A stretch of DNA of 64,000 nucleotides, from NCBI GenBank assembly GCA_902518155.1, contig CABYFA010000001.1, positions 133,942 to 197,941 on the forward strand, written 5' to 3'. The number at the start of each line of letters is the position of its first letter. The first letter of the stretch is position 1. Below the pieces are notes generated by a model. The model had not been told where the DNA came from, ran no database searches, and worked only from the letters and a program-made list of their open reading frames with translations. Shown piece after piece: positions 48,007-57,865 of this stretch. Source of the DNA: an uncultured Pelagibacteraceae bacterium. Lineage in GTDB: Bacteria > Pseudomonadota > Alphaproteobacteria > Pelagibacterales > Pelagibacteraceae. A program made the position numbers and the translations under genes.

Positions 48007-50106
48007 ATGAAGATAGCATCAATATTACCATATAAAGAAAATTATACGCTAAAAGGGGCTGGAGCAGTTGCTTTATGGATCAGTGATTTTGTAAGAGATT
48101 CTAAATATAAGAAAAATACTTACATTATAGGTAGTACAAAAAACAAAAATTATTTAACAAAAAATTATATAAATATAGATAATATTAATTCGAAACTTAA
48201 TAGTACAACTAAAGAGTATTCAAACAAAATTATTAATAAAATCAAGAATTTGAATTTTGATGTTTTAGAATTACATAATAGACCAATTATGGTTAAAGAA
48301 TTTTTTGGAAAATTAAATTCAAAAATTATCTTATATTTTCATAATGACCCAACTACGATGAAAGGTGCTAAATCAGTTAATGAGAGAGTCTACCTATTAA
48401 AAAATGTTGATAAAATTATCTTTATCTCAAAATGGGTAAAAAAAAAGTTTTTTGAAAATTTGCCAAATTTATCAGATAACAAAACTCAAATAATTTATCA
48501 TAGTATCGATCCAATAAGAAAAAATACCAAAAAAAATAAACAAATAATCTTTGTAGGAAAATTAAACGAATCTAAAGGATATGATCTGTATTGCAAATCA
48601 ATGTTCAAAATCTTAGATCAATATAGTGAATGGCGTGCTATTTCAATTGGTGAAGAAAGAAGATTTCAAAATTTTCCTACTCATAAAAGACACTTTGATC
48701 TTGGTCAAATTCCGCATAATAAAGTTTTAGATTATTTAAGCAAATCTGAAATTGCTGTTATTCCCTCAAGATGGGAAGAGCCATTTGGTAGGACCGCATT
48801 AGAGGCTTCTTCACGTGGCTGTGCCACAATAATTTCTAATACCGGGGGTCTTCCTGAAACAACTGATTACGCAATTAAATTAAAAAAATTGGATACAAAA
48901 AATATTGAAAATGAAATCATAAAACTTATTAAAAATGATAAATTAAGAAAGCTTATTCAAATAAAAAGTAAGAATTTTGTAAAACACAAATTAAAAATAA
49001 ATTCTCAAAAAATTGATTTGATGAGAAACTCGTTGTTCCCTTTTAAGAAAATTAATATTAATGGCAATAAATTAAGGATTATAAACATTTATAATATAGC
49101 GCAAAAACTTAATCATAGAATTTATAATCTTTCGTTAGGTAAAAAATTTACCAATGGTTTTATCCGAAATGGTCATGATGTAATTGAAATTAGTGATAGA
49201 GATTATGTGAGACAAAATAAAGGAATTAATCTATTAAGTTTTAAAGACAAATTTCATAGCTATTTAATTGAAACCTTTAAAAATTATAATCCAGATTTAG
49301 TTATTTTTGGTCACTCAGATAACATAAATCATGAAATCCTGTCTGATTTTAGGTCAATTAATAAAAAAATAATTATCTCCCATTGGAATGAGGATCCATT
49401 AATGAAAAATTTATCAGATACCTCGGAAAACGTGAATAAATTAAAAAAATTTTTTCCAATGGTAGATCATTCATTTATTACAACTAATCCTTCTGTGTTA
49501 AAACATTCAAAAAAATTCAACCAAAATATTCATTTTTTTATGACACCTGTTGATAAAAATATTGAATGTTTCAATGTCTATAAATTAAAACCAGAAAATG
49601 ATGTTTTTTATGCAATGAGCCATGGTGTTAATAGAGCAACACTTAAGGAAGGAAAAACAGATAACAGAGTAATTTTTTTAGAAAAACTTATAAAAAAAAT
49701 GGATGGAATAAAATATGATTTTTATGGAATTGGAAAACAAGAACCTGTATGGGGAAATGAATTTTATAAATCGTTACTTAATTCAAAAATGGCATTAAAT
49801 CTCAGTAGGGGCGAACCTACCAAACATTACTCAAGTAACAGAATAGCTTCACTTATGGGAAATGGATTATTAGTTTTTATTGATAAAAAAGTAAGAATGA
49901 ATAATTTTTTCAACTCAAATGAAATAGTTTCTTATGATCACATCGATGATCTTGCTGAAAAAATCAAATTTTATAAAAAAAATGATAAATCAAGAATTAA
50001 AATCGCTAAAAAAGGTAAGGAGAAATATTTCAAATTATTTAATGAAGTAAAAATTTCAAAATATATAATTGATAAATCTATCGGAAAAAAAGCTTCATTA
50101 GTTTAA
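48007..50106 (+). CDS. Double-domain glycosyltransferase (GT4-like plus CgeB/GT1-like)
   Basis: A 699-residue protein with two GT-B-like halves. The first (about 1-345) is a GT4-type transferase: IIFVGKLNESKGYDLY starts its C-terminal lobe, and SRWEEPFGRTALEASSRG with the donor-binding acidic pair is near 257-274. The second half (about 350-690) resembles CgeB/Glyco_trans_1-type proteins with NYNPDLVIFGHSDN and LNLSRGEPTKHYSSNRIASL. No signal peptide is visible, so it likely acts at the cytoplasmic face on a surface glycan. It is alone in the neighbourhood and flanked by the recombinase, suggesting variable accessory content. Substrate unknown. Confidence 0.8.
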   Translation: MKIASILPYKENYTLKGAGAVALWISDFVRDSKYKKNTYIIGSTKNKNYLTKNYINIDNINSKLNSTTKEYSNKIINKIKNLNFDVLELHNRPIMVKEFFGKLNSKIILYFHNDPTTMKGAKSVNERVYLLKNVDKIIFISKWVKKKFFENLPNLSDNKTQIIYHSIDPIRKNTKKNKQIIFVGKLNESKGYDLYCKSMFKILDQYSEWRAISIGEERRFQNFPTHKRHFDLGQIPHNKVLDYLSKSEIAVIPSRWEEPFGRTALEASSRGCATIISNTGGLPETTDYAIKLKKLDTKNIENEIIKLIKNDKLRKLIQIKSKNFVKHKLKINSQKIDLMRNSLFPFKKININGNKLRIINIYNIAQKLNHRIYNLSLGKKFTNGFIRNGHDVIEISDRDYVRQNKGINLLSFKDKFHSYLIETFKNYNPDLVIFGHSDNINHEILSDFRSINKKIIISHWNEDPLMKNLSDTSENVNKLKKFFPMVDHSFITTNPSVLKHSKKFNQNIHFFMTPVDKNIECFNVYKLKPENDVFYAMSHGVNRATLKEGKTDNRVIFLEKLIKKMDGIKYDFYGIGKQEPVWGNEFYKSLLNSKMALNLSRGEPTKHYSSNRIASLMGNGLLVFIDKKVRMNNFFNSNEIVSYDHIDDLAEKIKFYKKNDKSRIKIAKKGKEKYFKLFNEVKISKYIIDKSIGKKASLV

Positions 50107-50115
50107 ATATAAAAT

Positions 50116-51069
50116 TTAAAATTTTACTTTATTGAGTGCATTATTTTTAAATATATTTGATTCTCTAATATATCTTCTGACCATTTGCGTTGTTTTATGT
50201 CCAGTCATTGCCATAATACTACGTTCATCAGCACCAGATTCTGCAGCGACTGTTGCAAAACCTGATCTTAAACTATGACCTGCAAAATTTTTATTCTCAA
50301 TACCAGCTAAATTTAGATATTCTTTCATTAATAAAACTACTGATTGGTCGGTTAATCTTTTTTCTGTCAAAGATAAACCTTTAGAAAATCTTCTAAAAAT
50401 AGGTCCAGATTTAATTTTAGAAACTTCTAGCCATTTTTTAATAGTGACCACTGGGCAATATTTTTCATTAGTAAAGTAGGGTAGTCCCTTAATCATTCCT
50501 TCACCAAATTGATCGGTTTTTGATCTTTTAATGGTGATTTTAAGACCCTCTAGTACAAATTCTAAATCTTCATGATCAATTGAAATAAGCTCACTTCGTC
50601 TAAATCCACCCCCAAAGCCAATTAAGATTATTGACTTGTCTCTAAATTTTTTAATGTCATCAATTTTTTGCTGATCTATTACATTAATTATAGATTTTAA
50701 ATGACTGATTAATATAGGTTTTTTACCTTTTTGAATGCTTCCTTTTACCCTTTTTATTCCCATTAAGTTTTCAACAATGATTGGATGTTTAGTATCTAGA
50801 TAGTGCCCTTTTAATTTATGAACCATGCCAATTGACACTAAACGTCTTCTTAAAGTGCTTATTTTCGAATTTTTAGAAAGGTGTGTAAGGTATAATGAAA
50901 CTATTTTTGGCTCTGATGGCAAATAATTCAAACCATGCTTAGCACAAAAAGCTCCAAAATCTTTAAAGTCTGAATTATATGCTCTTAAAGTATTATTTGC
51001 TTTTGAGCTTTTGAGGTTATTTAAAGTTGCCTCATGAAGGGATTTTAGGTCTGTTGTCAGTTCACTCAT
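50116..51069 (-). CDS. Tyrosine recombinase / phage-type integrase
   Basis: A 317-residue tyrosine recombinase. The SAM-like core-binding domain covers about 10-105. The catalytic domain has Arg157 in GFRRSELISI, His265 and Arg268 in GHSLRSGF, His291 in MTGHKTTQMV and the nucleophile Tyr300 in RRYIRES. All catalytic residues look intact. It differs from the usual XerC/XerD consensus and is nearer to mobile-element integrases. No tRNA gene or obvious flanking repeat was found beside it, and no other phage genes are near. Convergent with the glycosyltransferase gene by 9 bp. Confidence 0.88.
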   Translation of the reverse strand: MSELTTDLKSLHEATLNNLKSSKANNTLRAYNSDFKDFGAFCAKHGLNYLPSEPKIVSLYLTHLSKNSKISTLRRRLVSIGMVHKLKGHYLDTKHPIIVENLMGIKRVKGSIQKGKKPILISHLKSIINVIDQQKIDDIKKFRDKSIILIGFGGGFRRSELISIDHEDLEFVLEGLKITIKRSKTDQFGEGMIKGLPYFTNEKYCPVVTIKKWLEVSKIKSGPIFRRFSKGLSLTEKRLTDQSVVLLMKEYLNLAGIENKNFAGHSLRSGFATVAAESGADERSIMAMTGHKTTQMVRRYIRESNIFKNNALNKVKF

Positions 51070-51150
51070 GCAATTACTATTGATAACAATTAATTATCAC
51101 TAGTAATATATCAAGTGATTTTTAATGTCAATAGTTTTAATATAAAAATT

Positions 51151-51327
51151 ATGGGTTCAATTGATGGAGAAATTCCTGCTGTATGGTTTTTAATTACCTC
51201 TGTGGGATTTATTATTTTAAGTTCTATTCAGTATAAAAATCATGGCAAAAGCATTGAAACTGTTTTTTTATCTATTTTGGCAATCTTATTTTTAATTAGC
51301 TATTTTATCTTGGTTTTCAAAGCTTAA
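51151..51327 (+). CDS. Small two-helix membrane protein, unknown
   Basis: A 58-residue hypothetical protein from the ATG at 51151; a GTG at 51115 would give 70 residues. After MGSIDGEIPA there is a hydrophobic segment VWFLITSVGFIILSS, a charged loop QYKNHGKSIET, and a second helix VFLSILAILFLISYF. No family was recognised and no clear ribosome-binding site is seen. It is divergent from the integrase and lies just upstream of the structured RNA region. It may be a genuine small membrane protein. Confidence 0.5.
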   Translation: MGSIDGEIPAVWFLITSVGFIILSSIQYKNHGKSIETVFLSILAILFLISYFILVFKA

Positions 51328-51422
51328 TTTATCCCCAATATTCACAGGAATTTCTATAAATTTTTAGAATCAATTAAAAAGTGATACAGCTTTAAAATCA
51401 TATCTGTTAAAGTAAAAATGAA
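51328..51422. other. Short AT-rich spacer before structured RNA; probable promoter region
   Basis: About 95 bp with no reading frame of note. It contains the AT-rich sequence expected of a promoter for the RNA that follows, including TTAAAGT about 15 bp before the first hairpin, but no convincing -35/-10 pair can be fixed. A single near-match to a DnaA box (TTATCCCCA, 51330 region) is present and is not enough to call an origin. Confidence 0.3.
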
Positions 51423-51606
51423 TTAAGGGGCAACCCTTAACTGGCCAATTGGACAAAAGCCGAGAGGTACAAATCCAGGGGGCAGAAAGTTCTGCAAAGC
51501 ATCGCTGAACATGCAGAACGGGAGGCATGGCGGTAGCGCATCAACGACGTGCCAAAACAACTGTTCTTTGCACCCTTAAAAGTGCAAGGAAACAGGAGTT
51601 TTTTTT
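51423..51606 (+). ncRNA. Candidate structured RNA / cis-regulatory leader, unrecognised class
   Basis: About 184 nt that are visibly much richer in G+C than anything else non-coding in the window. Local helices are: TTAAGGG/CCCTTAA closed by a GCAA tetraloop (51423-51440); TTGGA with TCCAG (51449-51453, 51474-51478); GTTCTGCA with TGCAGAAC (51489-51496, 51512-51519), which competes with CAGAA/TTCTG; GGCATG with CGTGCC (51524-51529, 51548-51553) enclosing GCG-GTAG-CGC; and a long terminal hairpin with a T tract (51561-51606). I compared it by eye with tmRNA, RNase P RNA, SRP RNA, and glycine, cobalamin, SAM, TPP and THF riboswitches and found no match. It could be a 5' regulatory element for the microprotein and ogt, or a free-standing small RNA. 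Confidence 0.7.
51561..51606 (+). terminator. Terminator-like hairpin overlapping a Shine-Dalgarno sequence
   Basis: CTGTT-CTTTGCAC pairs with GTGCAAGG-A-AACAG (51561-51573 with 51582-51595, one bulged A): 13 base pairs around an 8-nt loop. Three bases (GAG) and then eight T residues (51599-51606) follow, so it looks like an intrinsic terminator. The AGGAG at 51594-51598, partly inside the hairpin, is 8 nt before the ATG at 51607, so the same structure could mask the ribosome-binding site. This is a typical riboswitch or attenuator expression platform, or simply an sRNA terminator. Confidence 0.7.
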
Positions 51607-51696
51607 ATGATATATCCTGCAAAAGAAATGATTATAGCTATTATTTGTGTCGTGGCGTTTTTCATATGGAGAAATCAAGATTTTTTTTTCAGTTAA
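51607..51696 (+). CDS. 29-residue single-helix membrane microprotein, unknown
   Basis: An ORF of 29 codons directly after the T tract. It has an AGGAG 8 nt upstream, and its TAA is followed at once by the ogt ATG. The peptide begins MIYPAKE, has a hydrophobic stretch MIIAIICVVAFFIW, and ends in a charged/aromatic tail RNQDFFFS. Size and topology are like small membrane-acting peptides, including type I toxins such as TisB (also 29 residues), but no sequence similarity is claimed. The good ribosome-binding site and tight coupling to ogt argue it is translated. Confidence 0.5.
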   Translation: MIYPAKEMIIAIICVVAFFIWRNQDFFFS

Positions 51697-51969
51697 ATGA
51701 TCAAAGGAACTGAATTTCAAATTAAAGTATGGAATTATCTTAAAAAGATCCCTAAAGGATCTGTAAAAACATATAAACAAGTAGCTATAGCAATAAATAA
51801 GCCAAAATCAGCTCGTGCGGTTGCTAATGCTTGTGCTAAAAACCCATATGCCCCAAAAATACCTTGTCATAGAGTGATTAGATCTGATGGAACTCTTGGA
51901 GGTTACTCTGGTAGAGGTGGAATCAAGCAAAAACTCAAATTACTAAGATCTGAAAAAGTATCTATTTAG
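51697..51969 (+). CDS. ogt: Methylated-DNA--protein-cysteine methyltransferase, catalytic domain only
   Basis: A 90-residue alkylguanine-DNA alkyltransferase domain. It has TEFQIKVWNYLKKIPKGSV, the arginine-finger region SARAVANACAKNP (Arg40) and the active site IPCHRVIRSDG with acceptor Cys57. The cysteine is present, so it is a suicide repair enzyme rather than an alkyltransferase-like PWHR protein. The usual N-terminal domain is missing, as in the short Ogt/MGMT forms. The gene starts directly after the stop of the 29-codon ORF and is probably co-transcribed with it. Confidence 0.92.
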   Translation: MIKGTEFQIKVWNYLKKIPKGSVKTYKQVAIAINKPKSARAVANACAKNPYAPKIPCHRVIRSDGTLGGYSGRGGIKQKLKLLRSEKVSI

Positions 51970-57787: not shown

Positions 57788-57804
57788 AATTCTCACAAAA
57801 TCGG

Positions 57805-57861
57805 TAGGCATTTGAACTATATTGTGCGCCTTGCATAAAGCAAAAGCACTAAAAAAGGAGT
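57805..57861 (+). promoter_or_regulatory. SAM-V riboswitch aptamer overlapping the metY ribosome-binding site
   Basis: AGGCATTTG ... TATTGTGCGCCT forms the first stem and loop; the distal AAGCACTAAAAAAGGAG provides the pseudoknot strand, similar to SAM-II but with a longer hairpin. The 3' strand contains the AAGGAG Shine-Dalgarno 5 nt before the metY ATG, so SAM binding should block translation initiation. A SAM-II followed by SAM-V upstream of metY is known from Candidatus Pelagibacter ubique and related marine bacteria, supporting the assignment. Confidence 0.88.
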
Positions 57862-57865
57862 AAAA

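Follow-up and report, generated by a model that had tools for sequence, protein, structure and literature searches.

In the 64-kb window (the whole 64,000-nt stretch of DNA that was analysed), a short segment of high G+C content lies between a tyrosine recombinase gene on the reverse strand and an ogt-like gene on the forward strand. The region is organised as follows:

50116-51069, reverse strand: tyrosine recombinase (Phage_integrase)
51082-51098: dif-like sequence GATAACNATTAATTATC, exact match
51329-51346, forward strand: TTATCCCCAATATTCACA, two abutting DnaA-box-like 9-mers (TTATNCACA-like)
51380-51386, forward strand: AGTGATA block, a putative activator or -35-like element
51405-51413, forward strand: extended -10-like sequence TGTTAAAGT
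51416-51555, forward strand: full-length match to the Rfam family IMES-2
51607-51696, forward strand: micro-ORF for a 29-aa hydrophobic peptide, following a T tract (ATG at 51607)
51697-51969, forward strand: ogt-like gene, 6-O-methylguanine DNA methyltransferase, DNA-binding domain (PF01035, E 6.1e-33)

Segment 51423-51606 has 48.4% G+C against 28.7% for the window. Only 17 of the 63,817 overlapping 184-nt segments are equally G+C-rich and all of them lie inside 51412-51611, so that 51423-51606 is the richest bar shifts of a few bases. The fold of 51410-51610 reaches -68.6 kcal/mol versus -48.2 (sd 3.7) in 200 dinucleotide shuffles (z -5.5, none of the 200 as low). The Rfam scan of the window assigns 51416-51555 on the forward strand to RF02035, IMES-2, with 144.6 bits for a cut-off of 54.7, an E value of 1.5e-37 and model positions 1-141 of 141 covered; no other Rfam family scores above cut-off at this place. 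Membership follows from this score above the curated covariance-model cut-off, together with the presence of all four model hairpins.

The initial annotation had singled out a G+C-rich island of about 184 nt and a strongly folded RNA, both of which are borne out, and had located its hairpins accurately. It had also taken the RNA for an unrecognised class, a view overturned by the Rfam search that it had itself proposed: the covariance search settles the identity as IMES-2, and for this reason the new riboswitch falls. IMES-2 is an already catalogued structured RNA from the ocean, and the window copy is a new locus of a known family. We hold, with a probability of roughly 85%, that in this G+C-rich stretch a SAR11 bacterium carries an IMES-2 gene which stands alone as a small RNA gene, with promoter-like and terminator-like ends of its own.

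Several other identities were considered and rejected. None of the six frames crosses the 141 nt without a stop in more than 2 of 61 loci, and there is no conserved reading frame, so that a coding role is rejected. The window has no match to the alpha-type tmRNA model RF01849 and the above-cut-off tmRNA of the same genome is found elsewhere (G000:C11); since the SAR11 genomes tested have a tmRNA (19 of 20), IMES-2 is not a tmRNA in disguise. The 6S model RF00013 gives no match in 51300-51750 at E values up to 10, and a search of viral contigs with one 20-base IMES-2 pattern, bearing on a viral origin, returned 0 exact matches.

Hairpins and a probable loop-loop contact

The RNA is composed of successive hairpins on the forward strand, of which the last, together with its T8, lies outside model RF02035:

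51423-51440, forward strand: P1, 7-bp hairpin with a GCAA tetraloop (TTAAGGG-GCAA-CCCTTAA)
51441-51485, forward strand: P2, long hairpin with an internal loop and a GAGA apical loop
51489-51519, forward strand: P3, 8-bp hairpin with a 15-nt loop, stem GTTCTGCA/TGCAGAAC (51489-51496 with 51512-51519)
51502-51507, forward strand: kissing segment of the P3 loop, TCGCTG here and GCGCTA in most relatives, pairing with 51534-51539
51524-51553, forward strand: P4, hairpin with an internal G.A position and a 12-13-nt loop
51534-51539, forward strand: kissing segment TAGCGC of the P4 loop, pairing with 51502-51507
51561-51606, forward strand: P5, intrinsic-terminator-like 3' hairpin with T8; CTGTTCTTTGCAC/GTGCAAGGAAACAG (one bulge) pair 51561-51573 with 51582-51595, followed by GAG and T8 at 51599-51606

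Alignment A1 comprises 62 distinct cores, drawn from the 61 loci whose neighbourhoods were read and from 30 further loci (L002-L031), reverse-strand ones being turned; a partial match in G229 (L045), L040 and the sub-threshold L047-L051 were left out of the alignment and the counts. The initial annotation had proposed to look for covarying stems in SAR11 homologues, and such stems are found. Over the Rfam stems and the kissing helix, 94.6% of the cells are paired and both sides change in 31 of 45 pairs, versus 19.1 in shuffled alignments. The covariation score of this set is 0.424 against 0.180 when shuffled (0 of 500 as high) and at most 0.102 in slid versions. P1 is paired in 100% of the cells, with both-side changes in 4 of its 7 pairs. 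The lower helix of P2 is paired in 94.7% of the cells (both sides vary in 9 of 11 pairs) and its upper helix in 91.9% (2 of 4), while changes on both sides affect all 8 pairs of P3 and 5 of the 9 pairs of P4. Weak spots exist: one pair of the lower P2 helix fails in 32 of 62 sequences and the innermost pair of P3 fails in 15 of 62. The P4 column pair holding the G.A of the window is non-standard in 62 of 62. RNAalifold, which predicts no pseudoknots, recovers 33 nested pairs from the same alignment.

Covariation in this alignment supports a kissing contact in which the P3 loop (GCGCUA) meets the P4 loop (UAGCGC). Its cells are paired at 97.3% in the 62 sequences, with double changes in 3 of 6 pairs and 10 double-change cells against 0.8 in shuffles; its score of 0.119 exceeds the 0.060 of shuffles and the maximum of 0.057 reached by slid versions. 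The controls also set limits to this signal. The number of pair types is reached by 42 of 500 shuffles, sliding the helix by +3 leaves 8 double-change cells compared with 10 unslid, albeit with a lower score (0.035 versus 0.119), and kinship among the sequences inflates counts of this kind. Variants of the contact in A1 include GUGCU/AGCAC (L108), GUACU/AGUAC (L101), GCACU/AGUGC (L062, L104-L107) and UCGCU/AGCGA (L103). An inner pair is broken in a single sequence (L098). Of the two outer pairs, one is lost in 3 sequences and the other in 6; the window copy belongs to the 3, so that five of its six kissing pairs form.

Putative gene boundaries and changing neighbourhoods

The RNA is preceded by a block of conserved letters, laid out as TTATCC(A/C)C-NNN-(A)TTCACA, then CAA-N5-AAGTGATA, then TGnTAnnnT-like letters just 5' of the RNA. 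Its first element in the window, at 51329-51346, matches TTATCCMCNNNATTCACA exactly and is the sole site of the window with two mismatches or fewer. Sites of this kind are expected 0.29 times per window and occur at least once in 26 of 100 shuffles, for which reason the match in the window alone proves nothing. Across loci, 55 of 61 have a 9-mer that agrees with TTATNCACA in at least 8 of its 9 letters, compared with 5.8% of shuffled stretches. TTATNCACA is the DnaA box consensus, and it is by this resemblance that 51329-51346 may be a DnaA site. The second element has GTGAT in 57 of 61 loci and G[TAC]GAT in 61 of 61, counted with no shuffle control. For the third, a loose TGnTAnnnT/TGnTYWAAT-like motif occurs in 56 of 61, having been picked after viewing the alignment and likewise with no shuffle control; this -10-like motif would place the transcription start at about 51418-51424. 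The motif counts are not independent, the loci being related, and the argument is rather that the block persists where every neighbour differs: alignment A2 finds it before IMES-2 in differing neighbourhoods.

A profile of the block (A2/R1) was built with the upstream sequences of 40 of the 61 loci. Its top match is the IMES-2 locus, with E values of 3.5e-5 or better, in 9 of 9 genomes that bear the RNA. Among these, G034, G038 and G007 were outside the profile, while G001, a near-twin of G007, was inside. An earlier promoter pattern whose gap was set too short had been found in 1 of 18 genomes and missed the window's own site. In 17 genomes without IMES-2 no profile match surpasses E 0.0017. 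The idea that another RNA takes its place behind the block in such genomes was rejected: the best match, L299 (G020:C1:427319-427373, reverse strand, E 0.0017), is followed by a sequence of 27% G+C that looks coding by eye.

At the other end, the 3' hairpin folds in 61 of 61 loci, the 66-nt tail having a minimum energy of -19 to -28 kcal/mol with a sequence that differs between lineages. The T tract is less constant. A run of at least five T follows the hairpin in 32 of 33 ogt-linked loci versus 8 of the 22 with a convergent family-5 gene, which weakens the terminator claim at the latter, where the longest run is 3 in 14 of 22. Since the upstream block and the 3' hairpin accompany it, we interpret IMES-2 as an independent RNA about 190 nt in length.

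Neighbourhoods were read in 61 of the 200 matching genomes, the window and 60 others chosen to span genera and scores and hence not at random. The downstream gene, named after skipping ORF family 19 (an antisense overlap), is ogt in 34 of 61 loci, a convergent gene in 25 and another gene in 2; the 34, window included, comprise 33 assigned by ORF families and L091, added by its ogt 5' motif. Three arrangements recur. Type A (34 loci including the window) has the opposite-strand tyrosine recombinase, sometimes an ORF of 70 aa or a larger one resembling membrane proteins, IMES-2 and ogt. In type B (23 loci) an mnmA-like gene, named by eye, lies upstream and the convergent family-5 gene lies downstream in 22. 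Type C comprises 3 loci of genus g2; here, as judged by eye, the upstream gene is thermonuclease-like and the convergent downstream gene is SRAP-like. Locus L104 of genus g8 shares the upstream gene family of type C and has a different downstream gene. Conversely, ogt is retained in 14 of 14 recombinase loci from IMES-2-less genomes of the genus, with no IMES-2 seen between the two genes and other ORFs in its place in some. In G034, IMES-2 adjoins an mnmA-like sequence (L298) and is absent from the recombinase-ogt interval.

These arrangements bear on the other role offered in the initial annotation, a riboswitch-like element or attenuator acting in cis on ogt and, in the window, also on the membrane microprotein. 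The local anatomy on which it relied is correct: the hairpin at 51561-51595 is followed by T8 at 51599-51606, AGGAG at 51594-51598 is partly within P5 and thus overlaps the terminator hairpin, and an ATG comes next at 51607. The frequency of ogt behind the RNA (34 of 61) and a start codon lying close behind the T tract in those loci other than the window also speak for it. Because ogt is downstream in only 34 of 61 loci and the downstream gene is convergent in 25, IMES-2 is nevertheless no leader of ogt, and the persistence of ogt in the 14 loci lacking the RNA further argues against one. The switching device proposed with it does not hold across relatives. The 8-bp stem of P3 exists, but its alternative partner was taken as GCAGAAA (kept in 61 of 62 sequences), and the complementary TTCTGC is present in the stem of only 6 of 62, such that the one alternative pairing examined is no conserved, mutually exclusive structure. 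We therefore regard a cis-acting role on ogt as very unlikely. A free gene that changed place accounts for the neighbourhood pattern, which an ogt leader cannot, in agreement with the stand-alone small RNA abutting an ORF with its terminator that the initial annotation had listed as another option. The gene ogt is a neighbour of IMES-2, not a fixed partner.

The micro-ORF is found only in the window's genome among the 34 ogt-linked loci read. The ogt 5' motif starts at +196 to +212 from the IMES-2 start in 30 other loci versus +290 in the window, whose extra 90 nt or so before ogt correspond to the micro-ORF; in L078, L100 and L110, three further ogt-linked loci, the sequence runs straight into ogt. 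The closest relative read, L102, is 97% identical over the RNA and has no micro-ORF. As it is absent from the 33 other ogt-linked loci read, the micro-ORF is no conserved target of IMES-2 and, judging from these comparisons, is unlikely to be a regulated gene. A side effect in the window's lineage may be that some transcripts continue into ogt, and the short distance between the T tract and ogt leaves room for a secondary attenuation.

The recombinase has one match in each of 17 SAR11 genomes out of 17 (54-94% identity). Sequence GATAACNATTAATTATC, expected 0.36 times in the window with up to two mismatches, is located directly 5' of it in 48 of 50 loci. The two probably form a one-recombinase Xer/dif system at the terminus, a reading that contrasts with a statement in PMC2731167. 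In G015 and G001 the recombinase is near the turn of GC skew from positive to negative, the skew being sampled every 60-70 kb. On its left side (48007-50106 in the window, and type A loci among L072-L111) the adjoining gene varies by genome, a glycosyltransferase in the window, as in hypervariable islands. A recombinase tree mixed genomes with and without IMES-2, but it has odd long branches and crude ORF picks, and no conclusion is drawn from it.

The proximity of about 320 bp to this recombinase and its dif-like sequence, and the DnaA-box-like motifs upstream, could suggest that the conserved stretch acts as DNA, as a recombination or origin-related site, and not as RNA. This is extremely improbable: the covarying stems keep many G-U pairs of one strand, other genera have the element next to different genes, and in G001 it is remote from the skew switch. 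An origin of replication was rejected separately, since the G015 copy coincides with a positive-to-negative change of the sampled GC skew, which is what a terminus shows (the window has the same trend), and the G001 copy lies far from this change.

Patchy distribution in SAR11

SAR11 bacteria are among the most abundant in the sea. The IMES-2 motif was reportedly discovered in environmental sequences from the ocean, and its RNA is reported to be abundant in marine metatranscriptomes. Under strict filters IMES-2 scores above cut-off in 200 of the 397 genomes sampled from the order (SAR11), with a single match in each. It is present in 75 of the 151 genomes of this sample that are at least 90% complete and in 6 of 13 genera. 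A sensitive search of 26 genomes returned the same 15 above cut-off and none of the 11 previously lacking it. It also gave sub-threshold matches of 12-20 bits in some genomes, which carry no meaning because 4 of 14 control genomes likewise match below cut-off.

In the sample of the class, IMES-2 occurs in 3 of 385 genomes, all from the window's family, of which two other listed genomes have no match. A 20-base IMES-2 pattern run over named genomes found at least 120 stretches. Among the 80 matches listed, 78 are from Pelagibacteraceae, Pelagibacter or Pelagibacterales, and Rfam does not assign the other two, from Negativicutes and Leptolyngbyaceae, to IMES-2; the Rfam scan of eight named loci found the RNA in 6 of 6 from Pelagibacterales and in 0 of 2 from other taxa. 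IMES-2 is thus an accessory gene in SAR11 and, because about half of the sampled genomes lack it, no housekeeping RNA. A known marine RNA is now tied to SAR11, with the look of a free-standing gene, a loop-loop contact backed by covariation and a conserved upstream block, and its patchy presence provides species with and without it, so that its function can be tested by comparative transcriptomics in SAR11 isolates.

Possible mode of action and known systems

Comparison among sequences brings out the family membership, four covarying hairpins, a fifth hairpin at the 3' end, covariation for the kissing contact and an upstream block kept in unrelated neighbourhoods. The gene would yield a separate small RNA, some 185-190 nt long, that spans roughly 51420 to 51606. 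The upstream block, with its DnaA-box-like pair, GTGATA and extended -10-like sequence, would be its promoter, P5 and T8 would end transcription, and the product would presumably act in trans.

The way in which it acts is approached by elimination, Hfq and ProQ being the partners looked for. Hfq is undetected in 20 of 20 SAR11 genomes, including that of the window (91.8% complete), while the Caulobacter control matches; ProQ is likewise undetected in all 20, window's genome included, E. coli being the only control to match; and 6S RNA (RF00013) is undetected in 18 of 18, with matches in the Caulobacter and E. coli controls. These genomes (G000, G015, G001 and others) represent a lineage apparently devoid of Hfq, ProQ and 6S RNA. 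PMC2704228 reports SRP RNA and RNase P RNA for P. ubique.

The conservation of the helices and the contacting loops suggest a rigid tertiary fold, as expected of a protein-binding RNA. Since conservation resides largely in helices and in loops that pair mutually, and since neither Hfq nor ProQ is detected in the hosts examined, we tentatively favour, at a little under even odds, the view that IMES-2 is a compact, tertiary-folded RNA that acts through a protein which it binds, in the manner of 6S or CsrB-type RNAs. A trans-acting small RNA that pairs with mRNAs, by the exposed GCAGAAAG between P2 and P3 or by opened P3 and P4 loops, would suit a gene that stands by itself between an upstream block and a 3' hairpin of its own, and the retention of GCAGAAA in all but one of the 62 sequences would be in line with it. 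We find it doubtful: Hfq- or ProQ-dependent pairing is unlikely with neither chaperone detected in 20 genomes, and the conserved P3 and P4 loops pair with each other.

The protein bound could be RNA polymerase, IMES-2 standing in for the 6S RNA that is undetected in all 18 SAR11 genomes searched and is of similar length. This is distinctly improbable, given that IMES-2 has five distinct hairpins where 6S forms a single long one with a bubble at its centre, and that 7 IMES-2-less genomes searched also have no detectable 6S, therefore showing no pattern of exchange. As a speculation that we consider unlikely, IMES-2 might form the core of a ribonucleoprotein regulator peculiar to SAR11, responding to growth or replication state by way of a promoter with DnaA-box-like sites. 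Its gene would then be a self-contained promoter-RNA-terminator cassette that has come to occupy at least three chromosomal sites and is found in only about half of the species, in streamlined hosts without 6S or Hfq.

In the open literature searched, including PMC2704228, PMC6429828, PMC2731167, PMC5069720 and PMC2864571, we found nothing on a function or host of IMES-2, and the term itself turned up in a single paper, on a squid genome (PMC6962438). Riboswitches and leaders of SAR11 (SAM-V, glycine, rpsB and others) were found as G+C-rich intergenic islands in A+T-rich genomes, according to PMC2704228 and PMC6429828. IMES-2 came to light in the same manner; there these elements are described as preceding particular genes, whereas IMES-2 has no constant downstream gene. 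The window also carries a SAM-V riboswitch aptamer at 57797-57863 on the forward strand (85.8 bits in the Rfam scan). IMES-1 (RF02034) shares its name and discovery context with IMES-2; searched for as a possible substitute, it was found in 0 of 20 SAR11 genomes and had no match anywhere searched, so that the zero says little about its absence. 6S RNA (RF00013) resembles IMES-2 in length and in being a stand-alone gene, but its architecture differs and it gives no match. With the catalogued IMES-2 (RF02035), the window copy shares the full-length match and all four model hairpins, nothing being disqualifying. The RF02035 record may already hold the kissing contact, as the structure line of cmscan omits pseudoknots, and may name SAR11 hosts. 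Beyond the RF02035 match as printed by cmscan, the locus described here has the P3-P4 kissing contact, the 3' hairpin, a conserved upstream block and a host range.
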